Source of the DNA: Cellvibrio zantedeschiae | GTDB lineage: Bacteria; Pseudomonadota; Gammaproteobacteria; Pseudomonadales; Cellvibrionaceae | Direction of reading: 5' to 3' | Length of the DNA: 64,000 nt | Assembly: GCF_014652535.1 (NCBI RefSeq) | Contig: NZ_BMYZ01000001.1 | Location: forward strand, 1,240,001-1,304,000 | Shown here: piece after piece, positions 26,675-32,213 of the stretch | Layout of the letters: each line of letters opens with the position of its first letter | Position numbering within the stretch: position 1 is the stretch's first letter | Translations under genes and position numbers: made by a program | Notes under the pieces: generated by a model | The model's database searches: none | Told to the model about the DNA's origin: nothing | The model's input: the letters and a program-made list of their open reading frames with translations, nothing else

Positions 26675-27002
26675 GGCTGGGTTCCTGGCCGGTTGATCCG
26701 GCAGAGGTAAATTGAAAGGCCATTTTACGCAGGTTGGCACTCCAGGTCACCATATCTTCCTCGAACACTGATAGCTGATCTGTATGAGCCTGTTTAAATC
26801 CGGCGTAATTGCCTAATCGCAATAGCTAAAAGTGATGGCTTTTGGGTTGTGCGCACAAATGCTATTGAAGTAAAAACGCGGTCGCTCATTGCCAAGGCTC
26901 AATCAGCTCGCGTTTGCTTTTCCTTTGTCGAAGAGGAATGCAAGTTCCGCGAATAGGTGTAATGGGCATAGATGTTTATTTCAGTTGCTTTCAGAGGCGT
27001 AT

Positions 27003-28484
27003 ATGTCCCAAAAAATAAAAAAAGTCGTTATTGCTGGAGGAGGAACCTCGGGCTGGTGTACTGCTGTGGCGTTATCGCGTCAATTTGGCACTTTGCTGGA
27101 TATCACCTTAATCGAGTCTGCCGAGATTGGTACTGTGGGCGTAGGTGAAGCCACCTTTCCCACCATTAATTCATTCCATAAGATTAACGGCATTGATGAG
27201 CAGGAATTTTTGACGGCTACCCGCGGCACCATTAAGTTGGCCATCTCTTTTGAAAACTGGGGCCGTAAGGGTGACAAATATATTCATCCATTTGGCTCAG
27301 TTGGAAAGCCTAGCTGGATTGGTGGTTTTTATCATTATTGGTTGGCGGCTAAAGCTCGTGGTTATGAAGGCGAGCTTGAAGATTTGTGCTTTGAGCGGCA
27401 GGCAGCAAAAGCTCATAAGTTTGCCCTAATGGAGAATCCCAGACTCAACTATGCCTATCACTTTGATGCGAGTCTTTATGCGAAATTTCTACGCAAGCTC
27501 AGCGAGGAAAAAGGCGTTAAGCGCCTTGACGGAAAAATTGTTGAGGTTAAGCAGCATCCAGATACCGGCTTTATCAAGTCTGTTGTTCTGGAGTCCGGTG
27601 TCAGCATTGAAGGTGACCTATTTATCGACTGCACAGGATTTCGCGGTTTGCTAATCGAGCAGACCTTAAAGGCCGGTTATGAAAATTGGGGTCATTGGTT
27701 GCGTAACGATAGCGCCGTGGCCTTGCAGACAGAGTTTTCCGGTGATATTCCTCCCTACACCCGTGCTATCGCCCATGACGCCGGCTGGCAATGGAAAATT
27801 CCCTTGCAGCATCGTCAGGGGACGGGCCATGTTTATTCCAGTGCGTATATTTCTGATGAGGATGCTCGTAACACCTTACTCAATAATTTGGATGGCGATA
27901 TTCGGGTAGAACTTCGTTTGCTCAAATTTAATACCGGGCGCCGCAAACAAGCTTGGGTAAAAAATTGTGTTGCCGTAGGTTTGGCGGGTGGATTTATCGA
28001 GCCTCTGGAATCGACCAGTATTCACCTTATCCAGATGGGTATAACCAGACTGTTGCAGCTGTTTCCCTTTGAGGGATGTAACGAGCATTTGATTCGCCGC
28101 TACAACGAACAATCGCGTGCGGAATACGAGGAAACTCGCGACTTTATCATCCTGCATTACAAGGCAACGGAACGCGACGATACTCCTTATTGGAGAGATT
28201 GCCGGGACATGGTGATTCCAGATTCTTTAGCAGGAAGGATTGAACTGTTTAAGGAAACCGGTCACTTGTACCAGGGGCCTAATGATATTTTCAGTGTAGA
28301 TTCCTGGTTGCAGGTGCTCATGGGTCAGCGGATAGAACCTCGCAGTTATCATCACGCCCCGCACGTCATTAGTGATGAAGAAATCCGTGCTGGCCTTGAT
28401 AGCATGAGATCAAAAATTGCAGAGGCTGTTGAAAAAGTCCCGTCGCACACTGACTTTCTAAAATCCTACTGTGCGATAAGTTAA
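27003..28484 (+). CDS. Tryptophan-halogenase-family flavoprotein
   Basis: A 493-residue FAD-dependent halogenase-like protein. The FAD motif VVIAGGGTSGWCTAVAL is at the N-terminus, the family WxWxIP motif is present as GWQWKIPLQ, and GTIKLAISFENWG holds the Lys that positions hypohalous acid in true halogenases. The ATG at 27003 is chosen as the start because it directly precedes the Rossmann strand. In marine and soil polysaccharide degraders many such proteins sit beside glycoside hydrolase and TonB-receptor genes and have no proven halogenation activity; here the GH16 laminarinase follows. No separate flavin reductase gene is near. Confidence 0.85.
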   Translation: MSQKIKKVVIAGGGTSGWCTAVALSRQFGTLLDITLIESAEIGTVGVGEATFPTINSFHKINGIDEQEFLTATRGTIKLAISFENWGRKGDKYIHPFGSVGKPSWIGGFYHYWLAAKARGYEGELEDLCFERQAAKAHKFALMENPRLNYAYHFDASLYAKFLRKLSEEKGVKRLDGKIVEVKQHPDTGFIKSVVLESGVSIEGDLFIDCTGFRGLLIEQTLKAGYENWGHWLRNDSAVALQTEFSGDIPPYTRAIAHDAGWQWKIPLQHRQGTGHVYSSAYISDEDARNTLLNNLDGDIRVELRLLKFNTGRRKQAWVKNCVAVGLAGGFIEPLESTSIHLIQMGITRLLQLFPFEGCNEHLIRRYNEQSRAEYEETRDFIILHYKATERDDTPYWRDCRDMVIPDSLAGRIELFKETGHLYQGPNDIFSVDSWLQVLMGQRIEPRSYHHAPHVISDEEIRAGLDSMRSKIAEAVEKVPSHTDFLKSYCAIS

Positions 28485-28893: not shown

Positions 28894-31506
28894 ATGAGCA
28901 GATACAAAAATAATTTTTTGGCCAGAGCGCGGCTTGCCGTACTGGCTGGCGCTATGGCGCTGACGGGGGCATCTGTTACGGCAGATGTGTTAAACCCGGT
29001 TGTAGGCCCGCTTTTATACGAAGAGAATTTTAATACGCTGGATTCCGCAGTGTGGAACTCCATTGATAGCGATGGCTGCAGCATCGGCTTGTGCGGTTGG
29101 GGTAACCAGGAGCTGGAATACTACCGCCCGGGTAACCTCAGTATTGATAACGTACCTTTCGAGCCGGGCACTAAAGCTTTGGCATTCCAGGCTCGTCGTG
29201 AAGCTTTTGGTGGCAAGCCTTTTACCTCAGGCAAAGTGACTACCGAAGGTAAGTTGCAAGTGAAATACGGTTTGGTTGAATTCCGTATGAGCACGCCGCA
29301 AGTGGGCACAGGTTTGTGGCCTGCAGGCTGGATGTTGGGCACCACTTTGGCAACCTGGCCAGCAAAAGGCGAGTTGGACATTATGGAGATGGGGCATCGC
29401 TTGTCTTCCATGATTCCATTAGGTTCAGATATTAATAGCTACACCGCTTCCAACGCGATTTTCTATGCGTCTGCTGCTTGTGTTCCGGGCAATGAATCTT
29501 GTGCGGCCTCTACTGCATGGCAAACCAAAAACTCTTACGTAGCAAGCACTCCGCTGACTAACCGTTTTGTGGTTTACCGCATGTATTGGACGGATACCCA
29601 AATTCGTTTCACCGTTGTGGATAACGGCGTTGAGCACGACATGTATGCAGCGCCAATTCCTGTTGGGGGCGAGTCATCTGAATTCCAGGCTCCGTTCTAC
29701 TTCCTCTTTAACCTCGCTGTTGGTGGTAACTTCACCGATGCCGCTAACGACGCCCAAGTGACTGCGCCTTTACCAGCCAAGATGTACCTCGATTACGTTC
29801 GCGTTTACCAATTGAATGGTTTGGGTGAAGTAAAACTTGGTAACCAAACGCAAAAAGAAACCGGCACTTTCGGTGTATTCACTGATGCAAATGTCACCAA
29901 CAAACAAGAAATTGGTGGCAGTGCTGATTTGTGGGTTTGGAACCCGGCTTCGCTCAGTGCTGGTACTACACCTCCAGCTGAAGGCGCAAATGTAATTGCC
30001 TGGAACTACACCGCGCCGCAATGGTTTGGTGCTGGTATTGCTTCCCGTCAGCCACGCGATATGAGCAACTTTGGCAACGGTAGTTTGAAATTCAAAATCA
30101 AAATCCCTGCGAATGTTGGTTTCAAAATTGGTATTGCAGATACTTACACTAACGAGAAGTGGGTGAACTTCCCCGCTAACACGACTGCGTATGGTTTGGT
30201 TCGCAACGGCGATTGGGCGCAAGCAACAATTCCACTGTCAGAAATTCGCGGCATTAACGCGCTGCAATCCATGTCGCAATTGTTCATGATCGCAAGTCTT
30301 GATCCAACACCTGGCAGCAATTTCCCATTGGCGATTGACGATATCGTATGGGATTGCGGTAGCGATGCAGTTTGTCAATCAAGCGGTTCTTCTTCATCTG
30401 GTTCTTCTTCGTCATCAGGCGGTGTTGTTTCTAGCAGCTCTTCATCTGTTGCAAGTTCAACTGCTACCAGCTCAAGCAGTTCATCGGTTGTGAGCAGTGT
30501 TGTTGCTTCTTCTAGTTCAAGCAGTGCTGCAACTTCTTCCAGCAGTTCATCTTCCAGTGCCGCTGCATTTGAGTGGTTCGTACAAGCAGAAAGTTTTGTT
30601 GCAACTTCAGGCGTACAAGTGATTAGCACGCAAGATGCTGGTGGTGGTCAAAACGTGAATAACGTAGGTGCCGGCAATTGGATGGCTTTCGCTGGTTTGA
30701 ATGTTCCAAGCTCTGGCGTTTATCAAATTGAATACCGTGTGGCGAGCCCGGCTGCAACTATGTTCTCGTCTGATTTAAACGGCGGCTCAATTGTATTGGG
30801 CAACGTAAGTGTGCCAGCAACTGGCGGCAGTCAAACCTGGACCACCATCACTCAAGTTGTGAATTTGAATGCAGGTTCTTACAGCTTTGGTATTTACGCT
30901 CAGCAAGGTGGTTGGAGCTTGAATTGGTTCCGCATTACCAAAGTGACGGGTTCGTCTAGCAGTTCTTCTGTTGCGAGCAGTGTTGCGAGTTCATCTTCAA
31001 GCAGTGTTGCAAGCTCAAGTGCTTCTTCAACGTCCAGTGAATATGGCTACACACCTTTGTCGAGCAGCAGCCTTAAATTCTACGTGAATAATGCAATCTG
31101 GGCGGATATTCATTACATCGTAAATAACGAAGGCCAACAAAATATCCGCATGACTCACAACGTTGATAACACCAACGTATTTACGCTCAGCAATATTCCA
31201 GCGGGTGCCACCGTGAAATATTTCTTCACTGTTGGGCCATTGGTGAATGGTGCCTTTGATACGCCTTGGCAAACATTGAGTTTGGGTGGTGCTAGCTCGA
31301 GTTCAAGCTCATCTGCTGCGCCTTTGATGTGTGATGTCAACAACAGTAAAACAGTTGATATAGATGATATCGACATGATTCTCGCGCGCAAAAATACTCC
31401 GGTACAAGGCGCAAGTCCGTTCGATGTGAATAAGGATGGCGTTATCAATGTGCTGGACTCGCGCGCTTGCGTACTCAAGTGTACGAAGTTGTCGTGTGCT
31501 CGCTAA
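28894..31506 (+). CDS. Multimodular GH16 endo-beta-1,3-glucanase (laminarinase-like) with CBMs and dockerin-like tail
   Basis: An 870-residue secreted enzyme. In order: signal peptide (to about 30); GH16 catalytic domain (about 35-305) with the acid/base and nucleophile in GELDIMEMGH; an ExoP/galactose-binding-like domain (about 310-490); a poly-Ser linker; a CBM6 module (about 558-690, starting WFVQAESFVATSGVQV); a second Ser linker; a CBM56-like beta-1,3-glucan-binding module (about 722-800, with HYIVNNEGQQNIRMTHNV); a short Ser linker; and two dockerin-type calcium loops (CDVNNSKTVDIDDID and FDVNKDGVINVLDS) with four Cys. The predicted substrate is laminarin-like beta-1,3-glucan. The next gene encodes a cohesin-like PEP-CTERM protein, a possible anchoring partner. 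Confidence 0.9.
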   Translation: MSRYKNNFLARARLAVLAGAMALTGASVTADVLNPVVGPLLYEENFNTLDSAVWNSIDSDGCSIGLCGWGNQELEYYRPGNLSIDNVPFEPGTKALAFQARREAFGGKPFTSGKVTTEGKLQVKYGLVEFRMSTPQVGTGLWPAGWMLGTTLATWPAKGELDIMEMGHRLSSMIPLGSDINSYTASNAIFYASAACVPGNESCAASTAWQTKNSYVASTPLTNRFVVYRMYWTDTQIRFTVVDNGVEHDMYAAPIPVGGESSEFQAPFYFLFNLAVGGNFTDAANDAQVTAPLPAKMYLDYVRVYQLNGLGEVKLGNQTQKETGTFGVFTDANVTNKQEIGGSADLWVWNPASLSAGTTPPAEGANVIAWNYTAPQWFGAGIASRQPRDMSNFGNGSLKFKIKIPANVGFKIGIADTYTNEKWVNFPANTTAYGLVRNGDWAQATIPLSEIRGINALQSMSQLFMIASLDPTPGSNFPLAIDDIVWDCGSDAVCQSSGSSSSGSSSSSGGVVSSSSSSVASSTATSSSSSSVVSSVVASSSSSSAATSSSSSSSSAAAFEWFVQAESFVATSGVQVISTQDAGGGQNVNNVGAGNWMAFAGLNVPSSGVYQIEYRVASPAATMFSSDLNGGSIVLGNVSVPATGGSQTWTTITQVVNLNAGSYSFGIYAQQGGWSLNWFRITKVTGSSSSSSVASSVASSSSSSVASSSASSTSSEYGYTPLSSSSLKFYVNNAIWADIHYIVNNEGQQNIRMTHNVDNTNVFTLSNIPAGATVKYFFTVGPLVNGAFDTPWQTLSLGGASSSSSSSAAPLMCDVNNSKTVDIDDIDMILARKNTPVQGASPFDVNKDGVINVLDSRACVLKCTKLSCAR

Positions 31507-31536
31507 CATCTAAAAATAAATTCAGGAATCATAAAA

Positions 31537-32160
31537 ATGAAACTATTAATAAAAGCTCTGATTAAAAAAATTCTGGCAGTAGGTGTGTTGGGTTTGTTCG
31601 CATCCAGCGCCTACGCAACACCGGTATTATCTTTTGGTAATTCCGGCAGCAATCTTGCGCAGTGGTACAATGTTGGCGATACGGTTTCGCTCGATTTGTG
31701 GGTATCAGGTTTGGATGGCACTGATGGAGATGGATTGGGCGGTGTAGATTTTGCCGGCTTTGATATGAATTTGTCTTTCAATGGCGCTGTAACGGGCTAT
31801 CAAAATACCAGCTTTAGCTCAGACCTGGATGACTCGCTGTTTTACGGTCTTTCCTCCAATCCGACATCCAGCAATAGCCTAAACCTTTCTGGTTTATCGC
31901 TCTCCTGGGATTTATCTGGCCAGGCCAGTGCATTGAAACTCTTTACGCTGGTATTTACGGCAGGTCAGGCAGGAACCAGCACCATTAAGCTAGACGATTT
32001 TCTGTTGTCGGATTCGTGGGGTCTGGATTTTGCCAGCAGCAGTTACCTGGCTGAAATTACCGTAAAAGATCGCCCAGCCTCTGTACCCGAGCCAAGCACT
32101 TTGATGTTGTTCTTAAGTGCCTTGGGTGTAATGGCTGTGCGTCGTCGCAAGCTCATATAA
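31537..32160 (+). CDS. PEP-CTERM surface protein with a cohesin-like domain
   Basis: A 207-residue exported protein. The signal peptide ends near GLFASSAYA. Residues about 25-175 form a beta-sandwich with cohesin-like features: NVGDTVSLDLWVSGL, FAGFDMNLSFN and LKLFTLVFTAGQAGTSTIKL match the strand pattern of cohesins. The C-terminus is a textbook PEP-CTERM sorting signal: VPEPST, a hydrophobic helix and RRRK, recognised by an exosortase. The gene starts 30 bp after the GH16 gene, whose C-terminus is dockerin-like, and ends at a terminator. Together they may be a surface anchor and its cargo. The cohesin call is by pattern, not by search. Confidence 0.78.
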   Translation: MKLLIKALIKKILAVGVLGLFASSAYATPVLSFGNSGSNLAQWYNVGDTVSLDLWVSGLDGTDGDGLGGVDFAGFDMNLSFNGAVTGYQNTSFSSDLDDSLFYGLSSNPTSSNSLNLSGLSLSWDLSGQASALKLFTLVFTAGQAGTSTIKLDDFLLSDSWGLDFASSSYLAEITVKDRPASVPEPSTLMLFLSALGVMAVRRRKLI

Positions 32161-32179: not shown

Positions 32180-32213
32180 AAAAAGGCGAATCTTTGCGGG
32201 TTCGCCTTTTTTT
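32180..32213 (+). terminator. Terminator after the PEP-CTERM gene
   Basis: An AAGGCGAA/TTCGCCTT stem with a 10-nt loop is followed by a T-run of seven, 20 bp past the stop. Confidence 0.85.

Follow-up and report, generated by a model that had tools for sequence, protein, structure and literature searches.

A 64,000-nucleotide stretch of the genome of Cellvibrio zantedeschiae (NCBI RefSeq assembly GCF_014652535.1, contig NZ_BMYZ01000001.1, positions 1,240,001 to 1,304,000; hereafter the window) contains two neighboring plus-strand genes that appear to encode a secreted glucanase with a dockerin tail and a cohesin-type protein with a PEP-CTERM sorting tag. The original prediction for this locus, made by reading the sequence, had described a GH16 enzyme ending in two dockerin calcium loops and, 30 bp away, a cohesin-like protein with a PEP-CTERM anchor. 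The coordinates of both open reading frames (28894..31506 and 31537..32160) and the 30 bp spacing between the two genes proved exact. The first frame encodes a secreted enzyme of 870 residues in which a signal peptide (assigned by eye) is followed by the GH16 domain, an unassigned region, Ser-rich linkers, a CBM6, a CBM56 and the dockerin. The catalytic domain (29032..29811) is laminarinase-like: it scored 27.1 bits against PF00722 (cut-off 22), contains by eye the sequence ELDIME, which we take to be a GH16 motif, and matched 27 solved GH16-type sequences in the PDB, several of them named laminarinase (E 5e-31 to 2e-6). The CBM6 (30583..30942) and CBM56 (31042..31263) scored 80.1 bits with PF03422 and 70.5 bits with PF22184, respectively.

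The tail of the enzyme (31318..31503) matched the dockerin profile and carries two 12-residue calcium loops, read from the translation as DVNNSKTVDIDD (loop 1, 31333-31368) and DVNKDGVINVLD (loop 2, 31423-31458). Aligned with its relatives, it displays the two duplicated 12-residue loop motifs by which type I dockerins are recognized. One cysteine precedes loop 1, another lies within the sequence RAC, and a CxxxxC element is found at the C-terminus. On its own, the tail fell below the cut-off of Pfam Dockerin_1 (PF00404, 22.9 bits), with 13.9 bits in the whole protein and 18.3 bits as an isolated tail, and its top PDB matches were two ATP synthase chains (E 0.12 and 0.14), the first dockerin appearing at E 0.66. 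The assignment is firmer with its relatives than alone: Dockerin_1 was matched by all 22 aligned dockerin tails (profile A4) at E ≤ 1, and the dockerin profile found dockerins in the PDB from E 1.5e-4. These results support the assignment of the tail as a putative type-I-like dockerin.

The second gene (31537..32160) encodes a protein of 207 residues with a signal peptide (by eye), a cohesin-type domain (31621..32082, assigned via relatives) and a PEP-CTERM sorting tag (32080..32151). The anticipated anchor was identified, with 28.7 bits for PF07589 (cut-off 20.7) and 25.8 bits for TIGR02595. A PEP-CTERM protein family in NCBIfam, NF038129, was matched by all 22 members of an untrimmed profile of partner proteins (A3) at E ≤ 0.1; the window protein matched it over residues 72-204 with a score far under the cut-off (21.4 of 65 bits).

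The cohesin identity of the partner domain came from its relatives. Pfam Cohesin was matched at E ≤ 1 by 17 of 22 partner relatives and by 18 of 21 in another set, the best value being 3.3e-8. Profile A5, trimmed and built from 21 partner domains, returned 18 PDB matches at E ≤ 1, of which 12 are named scaffoldin, scaffolding or cohesin, four are NagJ chains and two are named 'Endoglucanase' (5nrk_A and 5nrm_A); the five matches at E ≤ 0.001 comprise one scaffoldin and the four NagJ chains. A PDB search with the dockerin profile identified the partner chains of 5nrk_A and 5nrm_A as dockerins, and we take these two chains, like NagJ, to be cohesin modules. A profile that omits the window protein (A9) gave 15 matches of the same kinds (nine scaffoldin, scaffolding or cohesin, four NagJ and two 'Endoglucanase'). 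Alignment of A5 using hhalign with 11 independent Pfam cohesins (A7), nine from the class of a Gracilibacteraceae metagenome-assembled genome (MAG) and two from Bacteroidales MAGs, gave 96.5%. The family profile is thus homologous to known cohesins, which supports the window partner domain as a probable cohesin by way of relatives that match cohesin. The modules named in the original prediction were borne out by Pfam in these relatives, which match Dockerin_1 and, for the most part, Cohesin, but not in the window proteins themselves, whose dockerin remained under the cut-off and whose cohesin domain went unmatched.

A second pair is present in the same genome (C2; locus L007, 8077-11203, minus strand). 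Its first gene encodes an ExeM/NucH nuclease (647 bits, cut-off 300) that ends in a dockerin scoring above the Pfam cut-off, at 28.0–33.6 bits (28.0 on the whole protein). The product of the partner gene, 10 bp downstream, has 200 residues, a PEP-CTERM tag and a cohesin match that stays under the threshold (18.9 of 24.1 bits). The two PEP-CTERM partners share 33% identity (BLASTP E 6e-16) and the two dockerins 39%. Among the 22 PEP-CTERM loci in the genome, 20 of them over the cut-off, the cohesin profile matched solely two, both beside dockerins. A third Pfam dockerin match (C4:29378) was set aside as an EF-hand-like stretch (by eye) within a 1192-residue protein. The genome also encodes a GH16-CBM56-type paralogue of the window enzyme (C1:2198511-2200079; L179, L223) that is 76% identical over the matched part; by eye it ends immediately beyond the CBM56-like stretch, and the roughly 900 bases that follow gave no dockerin or cohesin match.

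The pairing recurs throughout the family. A two-row dockerin profile was searched against 144 Cellvibrionaceae genomes, and matches with E < 1e-15 were regarded as strong. All 22 strong dockerins, found in 20 genomes, are followed directly by a gene for a cohesin protein with a PEP-CTERM (or VPLP-type) tail, at gaps of 8–63 bp. Eleven weaker dockerins occurred in 10 genomes; ten were fetched and none had an adjoining cohesin, two of them (G112 and G005) having a CxxxxC tail. A separate contig scan yielded 27 loci, the Cellvibrio ones coming largely from the same genomes as the family survey and the others from Burkholderiaceae, Zoogloeaceae, Paucibacter, Methylibium, Aquabacterium, a Deltaproteobacteria MAG and a Deferrisomatales MAG. 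A cohesin-like gene lies downstream of the dockerin gene in 20 of these loci and upstream in L066; the partner tail at L069 is PEP-CTERM-like by eye only, with no NCBIfam match. Three loci have a CxxxxC dockerin with no cohesin match (L064, L070 and L072), and three more contain ordinary dockerins (L068, L071 and L073). L070 and L072 are from Candidatus Accumulibacter, where the CxxxxC-type dockerins lie inside longer frames.

Both profiles were also searched in 369 genomes drawn from the class, with the C. zantedeschiae genome left out of the co-occurrence count (368 genomes). Dockerins were found in 20 genomes, cohesins in 14 and both in 12, compared with 0.76 expected (Fisher 1e-15). In all 12, dockerin and cohesin are encoded on one strand, 119–2503 bp apart, with the cohesin either upstream or downstream; one genome, G219, has two additional dockerins on other contigs. 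The CxxxxC tail is present in nine of the 12 and absent in G188, G429 and G219, so it is common and not required. Strong CxxxxC-tail dockerins (E < 1e-13) numbered 12 in 11 genomes of six families, and 11 of these have a clear cohesin neighbor. The neighbor in G282 was found only by local inspection, and that in G491, a small protein whose C-terminus is hydrophobic, matches the cohesin profile only weakly (E 0.0024; not significant in another search). Recurrence at the level of genome, genus and family, together with the class survey, rules out chance adjacency.

Comparison of homologous enzymes with and without the tail revealed what the cohesin gene accompanies. Thirty ExeM loci were fetched out of 76 genomes with a match. 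A cohesin neighbor was found for 15 of 15 homologues with a CxxxxC-tail dockerin and for 0 of 15 with other tails, some of which are Cys-free and dockerin-like; 14 of the latter loci had at least 960 bases after the gene, L205 had 147, and the frame at L203 is broken by undetermined bases. On these sequence data the cohesin link follows the dockerin and not the enzyme. The window enzyme gave the same picture: of 15 close GH16 matches (>400 bits) 14 were read, three of which have dockerin and cohesin, while 11 match neither profile (nine of them followed by 800 bases or more, one lying in the window's own genome; L162/L222 and L221 end within 177 bases). The possibility that the pair is a feature of GH16 enzymes was discarded on account of these 11 relatives. 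One GH16 relative (L222, G032 C314; 70% identical) has a long tail that is rich in Ser and closes with a GG-hydrophobic-basic pattern, GlyGly-CTERM-like by eye, that found no match in NCBIfam.

The carriers of the dockerin are diverse and include nuclease, glucanase, subtilase, GDSL lipase, RHS/teneurin-like, Ig-like repeat, EGF-repeat and propeller-like proteins. Inspection of 43 CxxxxC-tail dockerins revealed that two other cysteines, one immediately ahead of loop 1 and one four residues ahead of the tail, are either both present (23) or both absent (20), with no case of one alone, and five further CxxxxC dockerins fit this pattern (three with both, two with neither). In our reading, this co-occurring pair may form a second disulfide that clasps the two dockerin ends. 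As the dockerin rows were picked by similarity, the CxxxxC tail is partly a selection effect; the Cys co-occurrence is not, although related rows share descent.

Several loci depart from the arrangement of the window. At L143 (G385 C1, 2810-12990) a single cohesin-PEP-CTERM gene lies between two dockerin carriers, one of 619 residues that matches Pfam IgGFc_binding, the other a 2458-residue RHS/teneurin-like protein with an N-terminal dockerin. The dockerin is also near the N-terminus at L145 (G444), L102 (G207) and L066, in frames of 2655, 1851 and 1803 residues, and there the cohesin gene is upstream. Genome G219 has a different arrangement at L110 and L120, where one protein combines a dockerin-like repeat with a tail that by eye resembles PEP-CTERM. 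At L146 of the same genome (C18, 2769-5229), a 354-residue frame with a dockerin match and a weak cohesin match precedes a 476-residue frame with a weak cohesin match.

The genome search for an exosortase, suggested along with the original prediction, returned one (TIGR02602, 112 bits in the genome search and 110.2 bits on the open reading frame; cut-off 105.55), which is XrtA-like (138 of 208 bits). Two features expected of a PEP-CTERM/exosortase substrate, a tag over the cut-off and an exosortase in the genome, are present. Exosortase was detected in 125 of the 369 class genomes and in 11 of the 14 pair genomes (the 12 described above plus G282 and G491; p 6e-4). Passages of PMC6085458 describe Shewanella oneidensis ExeM as having a GG-type C-terminal membrane anchor and being found mostly with the inner membrane, loss of rhombosortase having little effect. 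Sections of Haft and Varghese (PMC3237569) report families whose members carry differing sorting tags, and PEP-CTERM proteins are a proposed part of the extracellular polymer matrix in a portion of PMC9850573. From these reports and the occurrence of exosortase we infer that the cohesin protein would display its partner on the surface or in the matrix.

Downstream of the partner gene is a hairpin with a T-rich 3' arm (32180..32211, plus strand; -17.7 kcal/mol, z -4.1), a probable rho-independent terminator, and the GH16 and partner genes thus look like one transcription unit. The hairpin is absent from the list of a simple promoter and terminator scan, which performed near chance level. The gene after the pair encodes an unrelated FtsJ-type methyltransferase. 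Directly upstream of the GH16 gene, on the same strand, lies a tryptophan halogenase-family gene (26889-28484; PF04820, 625 bits).

Considering the module identities obtained from relatives' profiles, the gene pairing and its recurrence, the joint absence of both parts in homologues and the exosortase, we think it likely that the two genes constitute a two-part surface anchoring unit. The GH16 enzyme would be secreted bearing its C-terminal type-I-like dockerin, and the single-cohesin protein would be recognized by the exosortase via PEP-CTERM and delivered to the outer surface or the exopolysaccharide matrix. The dockerin, its two loops probably occupied by calcium, would plug into the neighbor-encoded cohesin, and the beta-1,3-glucanase would thereby be kept at the cell or in the matrix and not diffuse away. 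The second, diverged pair would do likewise for the ExeM-type extracellular nuclease. Binding, one-to-one specificity, calcium dependence and this final location are what the model would entail, and the conserved gene pair points to a cognate couple. The original prediction had spoken of a one-enzyme surface complex, a wording that is not supported: the genome search found the second, independent pair, and together with the unrelated carriers elsewhere this suggests a general anchoring module and not a laminarinase special case. Its observation is confirmed, and its first interpretation partly supported. On balance, though only just, we favor a wider reading in which proteobacteria would have a general plug-and-socket display system linked to exosortase, serving secreted nucleases, glucanases, proteases, lipases and large repeat proteins. 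In such a system the disulfide-tailed dockerin would be a portable C- or N-terminal anchor, each carrier would plug into its own co-encoded single-cohesin PEP-CTERM protein and so be placed on the surface or exopolysaccharide, and for ExeM-type nucleases this would replace the direct GlyGly-CTERM tag.

A number of observations weigh against an anchoring unit. The dockerin profile also matches ordinary EF-hand proteins in the PDB, one of them as its best match. The window partner protein has no direct match to Pfam Cohesin (PF00963), even at E 1, and alone it matched nothing in the PDB. The untrimmed profile A3 gave 13 PDB matches with four NagJ chains on top, followed by two scaffoldins and seven non-cohesin enzymes (E 0.12–0.36). 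The window's own three-member partner subgroup (A8) aligned weakly with the independent cohesins (33.6%) and at 97.2% with the other partner domains (A9), so that its cohesin identity is one by descent. No cohesin was found in the fetched stretch for the CxxxxC dockerins of G112, G005, L064, L070 and L072, the stretches of L064 and L070 ending near contig ends, and conversely a cohesin had no dockerin match in G269 (none in 11 kb) and G165 (a 3-kb contig). Dockerin and cohesin distances do correlate (r 0.872 over 30 pairs, with 0 of 5000 permutations as high), which speaks for the unit, but the correlation partly reflects shared descent, from which it is not separable in these data, and it was only 0.555 within 16 ExeM pairs. 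Exosortase was not detected in three of the 14 pair genomes (G340, G429 and G219).

These last three genomes also fit a different explanation, in which the partner aids export, folding or periplasmic protection of the enzyme in the manner of a chaperone or inhibitor, and PEP-CTERM is an inner-membrane hold with no surface complex; the tail there may be a plain membrane anchor. A tight operon that gives each secreted protein a single small partner would be expected equally of such a helper, and S. oneidensis ExeM is, in the cited passages of PMC6085458, mostly at the inner membrane. The partner is nevertheless a cohesin by profile, the link tracks the dockerin and not the enzyme, and the carriers are not of one family and extend to large repeat proteins, which would hardly call for an inhibitor; we consider a helper role unlikely. 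It is very improbable, in our estimation, that the modules do not bind each other and that the EF-hand tails resembling dockerins and the PEP-CTERM proteins resembling cohesins are independent features of the surface, passed on together through linkage. That the pair is known from sequence, that some CxxxxC-tail dockerins lack a cohesin neighbor, and that related loci share descent, such that counts inside Cellvibrio are not independent, would agree with this scenario; yet the linkage holds across the class despite changed gene order and carriers, and both parts are jointly present or absent in ExeM homologues. A classical cellulosome, with enzymes assembled on a scaffoldin, shares the cohesin and dockerin modules and would call for a multi-cohesin scaffoldin together with many dockerin enzymes. 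The C. zantedeschiae genome instead holds two dockerins by profile and three Pfam cohesin matches, none over the cut-off and each in a different frame, and the two cohesin-profile matches lie in frames of 216–217 residues with room for one domain each. No scaffoldin was found in this genome, and we regard the chance of a cellulosome as negligible.

To our knowledge, the task of most PEP-CTERM proteins has not been established. A passage of a 2017 review (PMC5244752) likewise calls unknown what cohesin and dockerin proteins do when no cellulosome is involved. The pairing would bring the two questions together in one compact and testable unit of two genes, with the PEP-CTERM protein acting as receptor for a portable plug, the dockerin. 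Proteobacteria would gain a means of displaying an enzyme that itself stays untagged, and the presence of two diverged pairs in a single genome could be exploited for orthogonal protein display. A search of the open-access literature in one library returned nothing joining dockerin with PEP-CTERM, and exosortase with dockerin or cohesin solely in the above review, which concerns anaerobic methanotrophic (ANME) archaea. The original prediction held that cellulosomes are not known from this lineage; two dockerin-like and six cohesin-like open reading frames of Saccharophagus degradans are already in print, according to a portion of its genome paper (PMC2386152). In S. degradans, as in ANME archaea with archaeosortases (PMC5244752), both modules are reported outside cellulosomes, and the archaea also have exosortase-type enzymes; the sections of these two accounts consulted describe neither a neighbor-gene pairing nor a sorting tag on the cohesin.

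Cellulosomal cohesin-dockerin complexes (such as 3l8q, 5lxv and 2y3n) belong to the same module families by profile. In contrast to cellulosomes, here no scaffoldin or repeated cohesins were found, the carriers are mostly non-cellulases, the dockerin is CxxxxC-tailed, and the cohesin bears PEP-CTERM. A 2009 paper by Peer et al. is said to carry noncellulosomal cohesin- and dockerin-like modules in its title. NagJ contains a single cohesin with a dockerin partner outside the cellulosome, and its structures (2jh2, 2o4e, 2ozn, 2w1n) count among the top PDB matches for the cohesin profiles. Unlike in NagJ, the putative cohesin is here a small protein of its own that bears an exosortase tag and is encoded beside its presumed client, in proteobacteria. 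The tag over the cut-off and the exosortase in the genome are shared with PEP-CTERM/exosortase sorting (PF07589, TIGR02602). What sets this case apart is the binding module of the tagged protein, which seems to act as receptor for a neighbor that has no such tag. A further parallel may be drawn with the GlyGly-CTERM/rhombosortase ExeM nucleases, for which NCBIfam holds a model named exonuc_ExeM-GG (we read GG as GlyGly) and in which, as far as the relevant passages of PMC6085458 and PMC3237569 describe, a C-terminal element keeps an ExeM-family nuclease with the envelope. In Cellvibrio, by contrast, the C-terminal element is a probable dockerin, and the membrane tag resides on a second protein.

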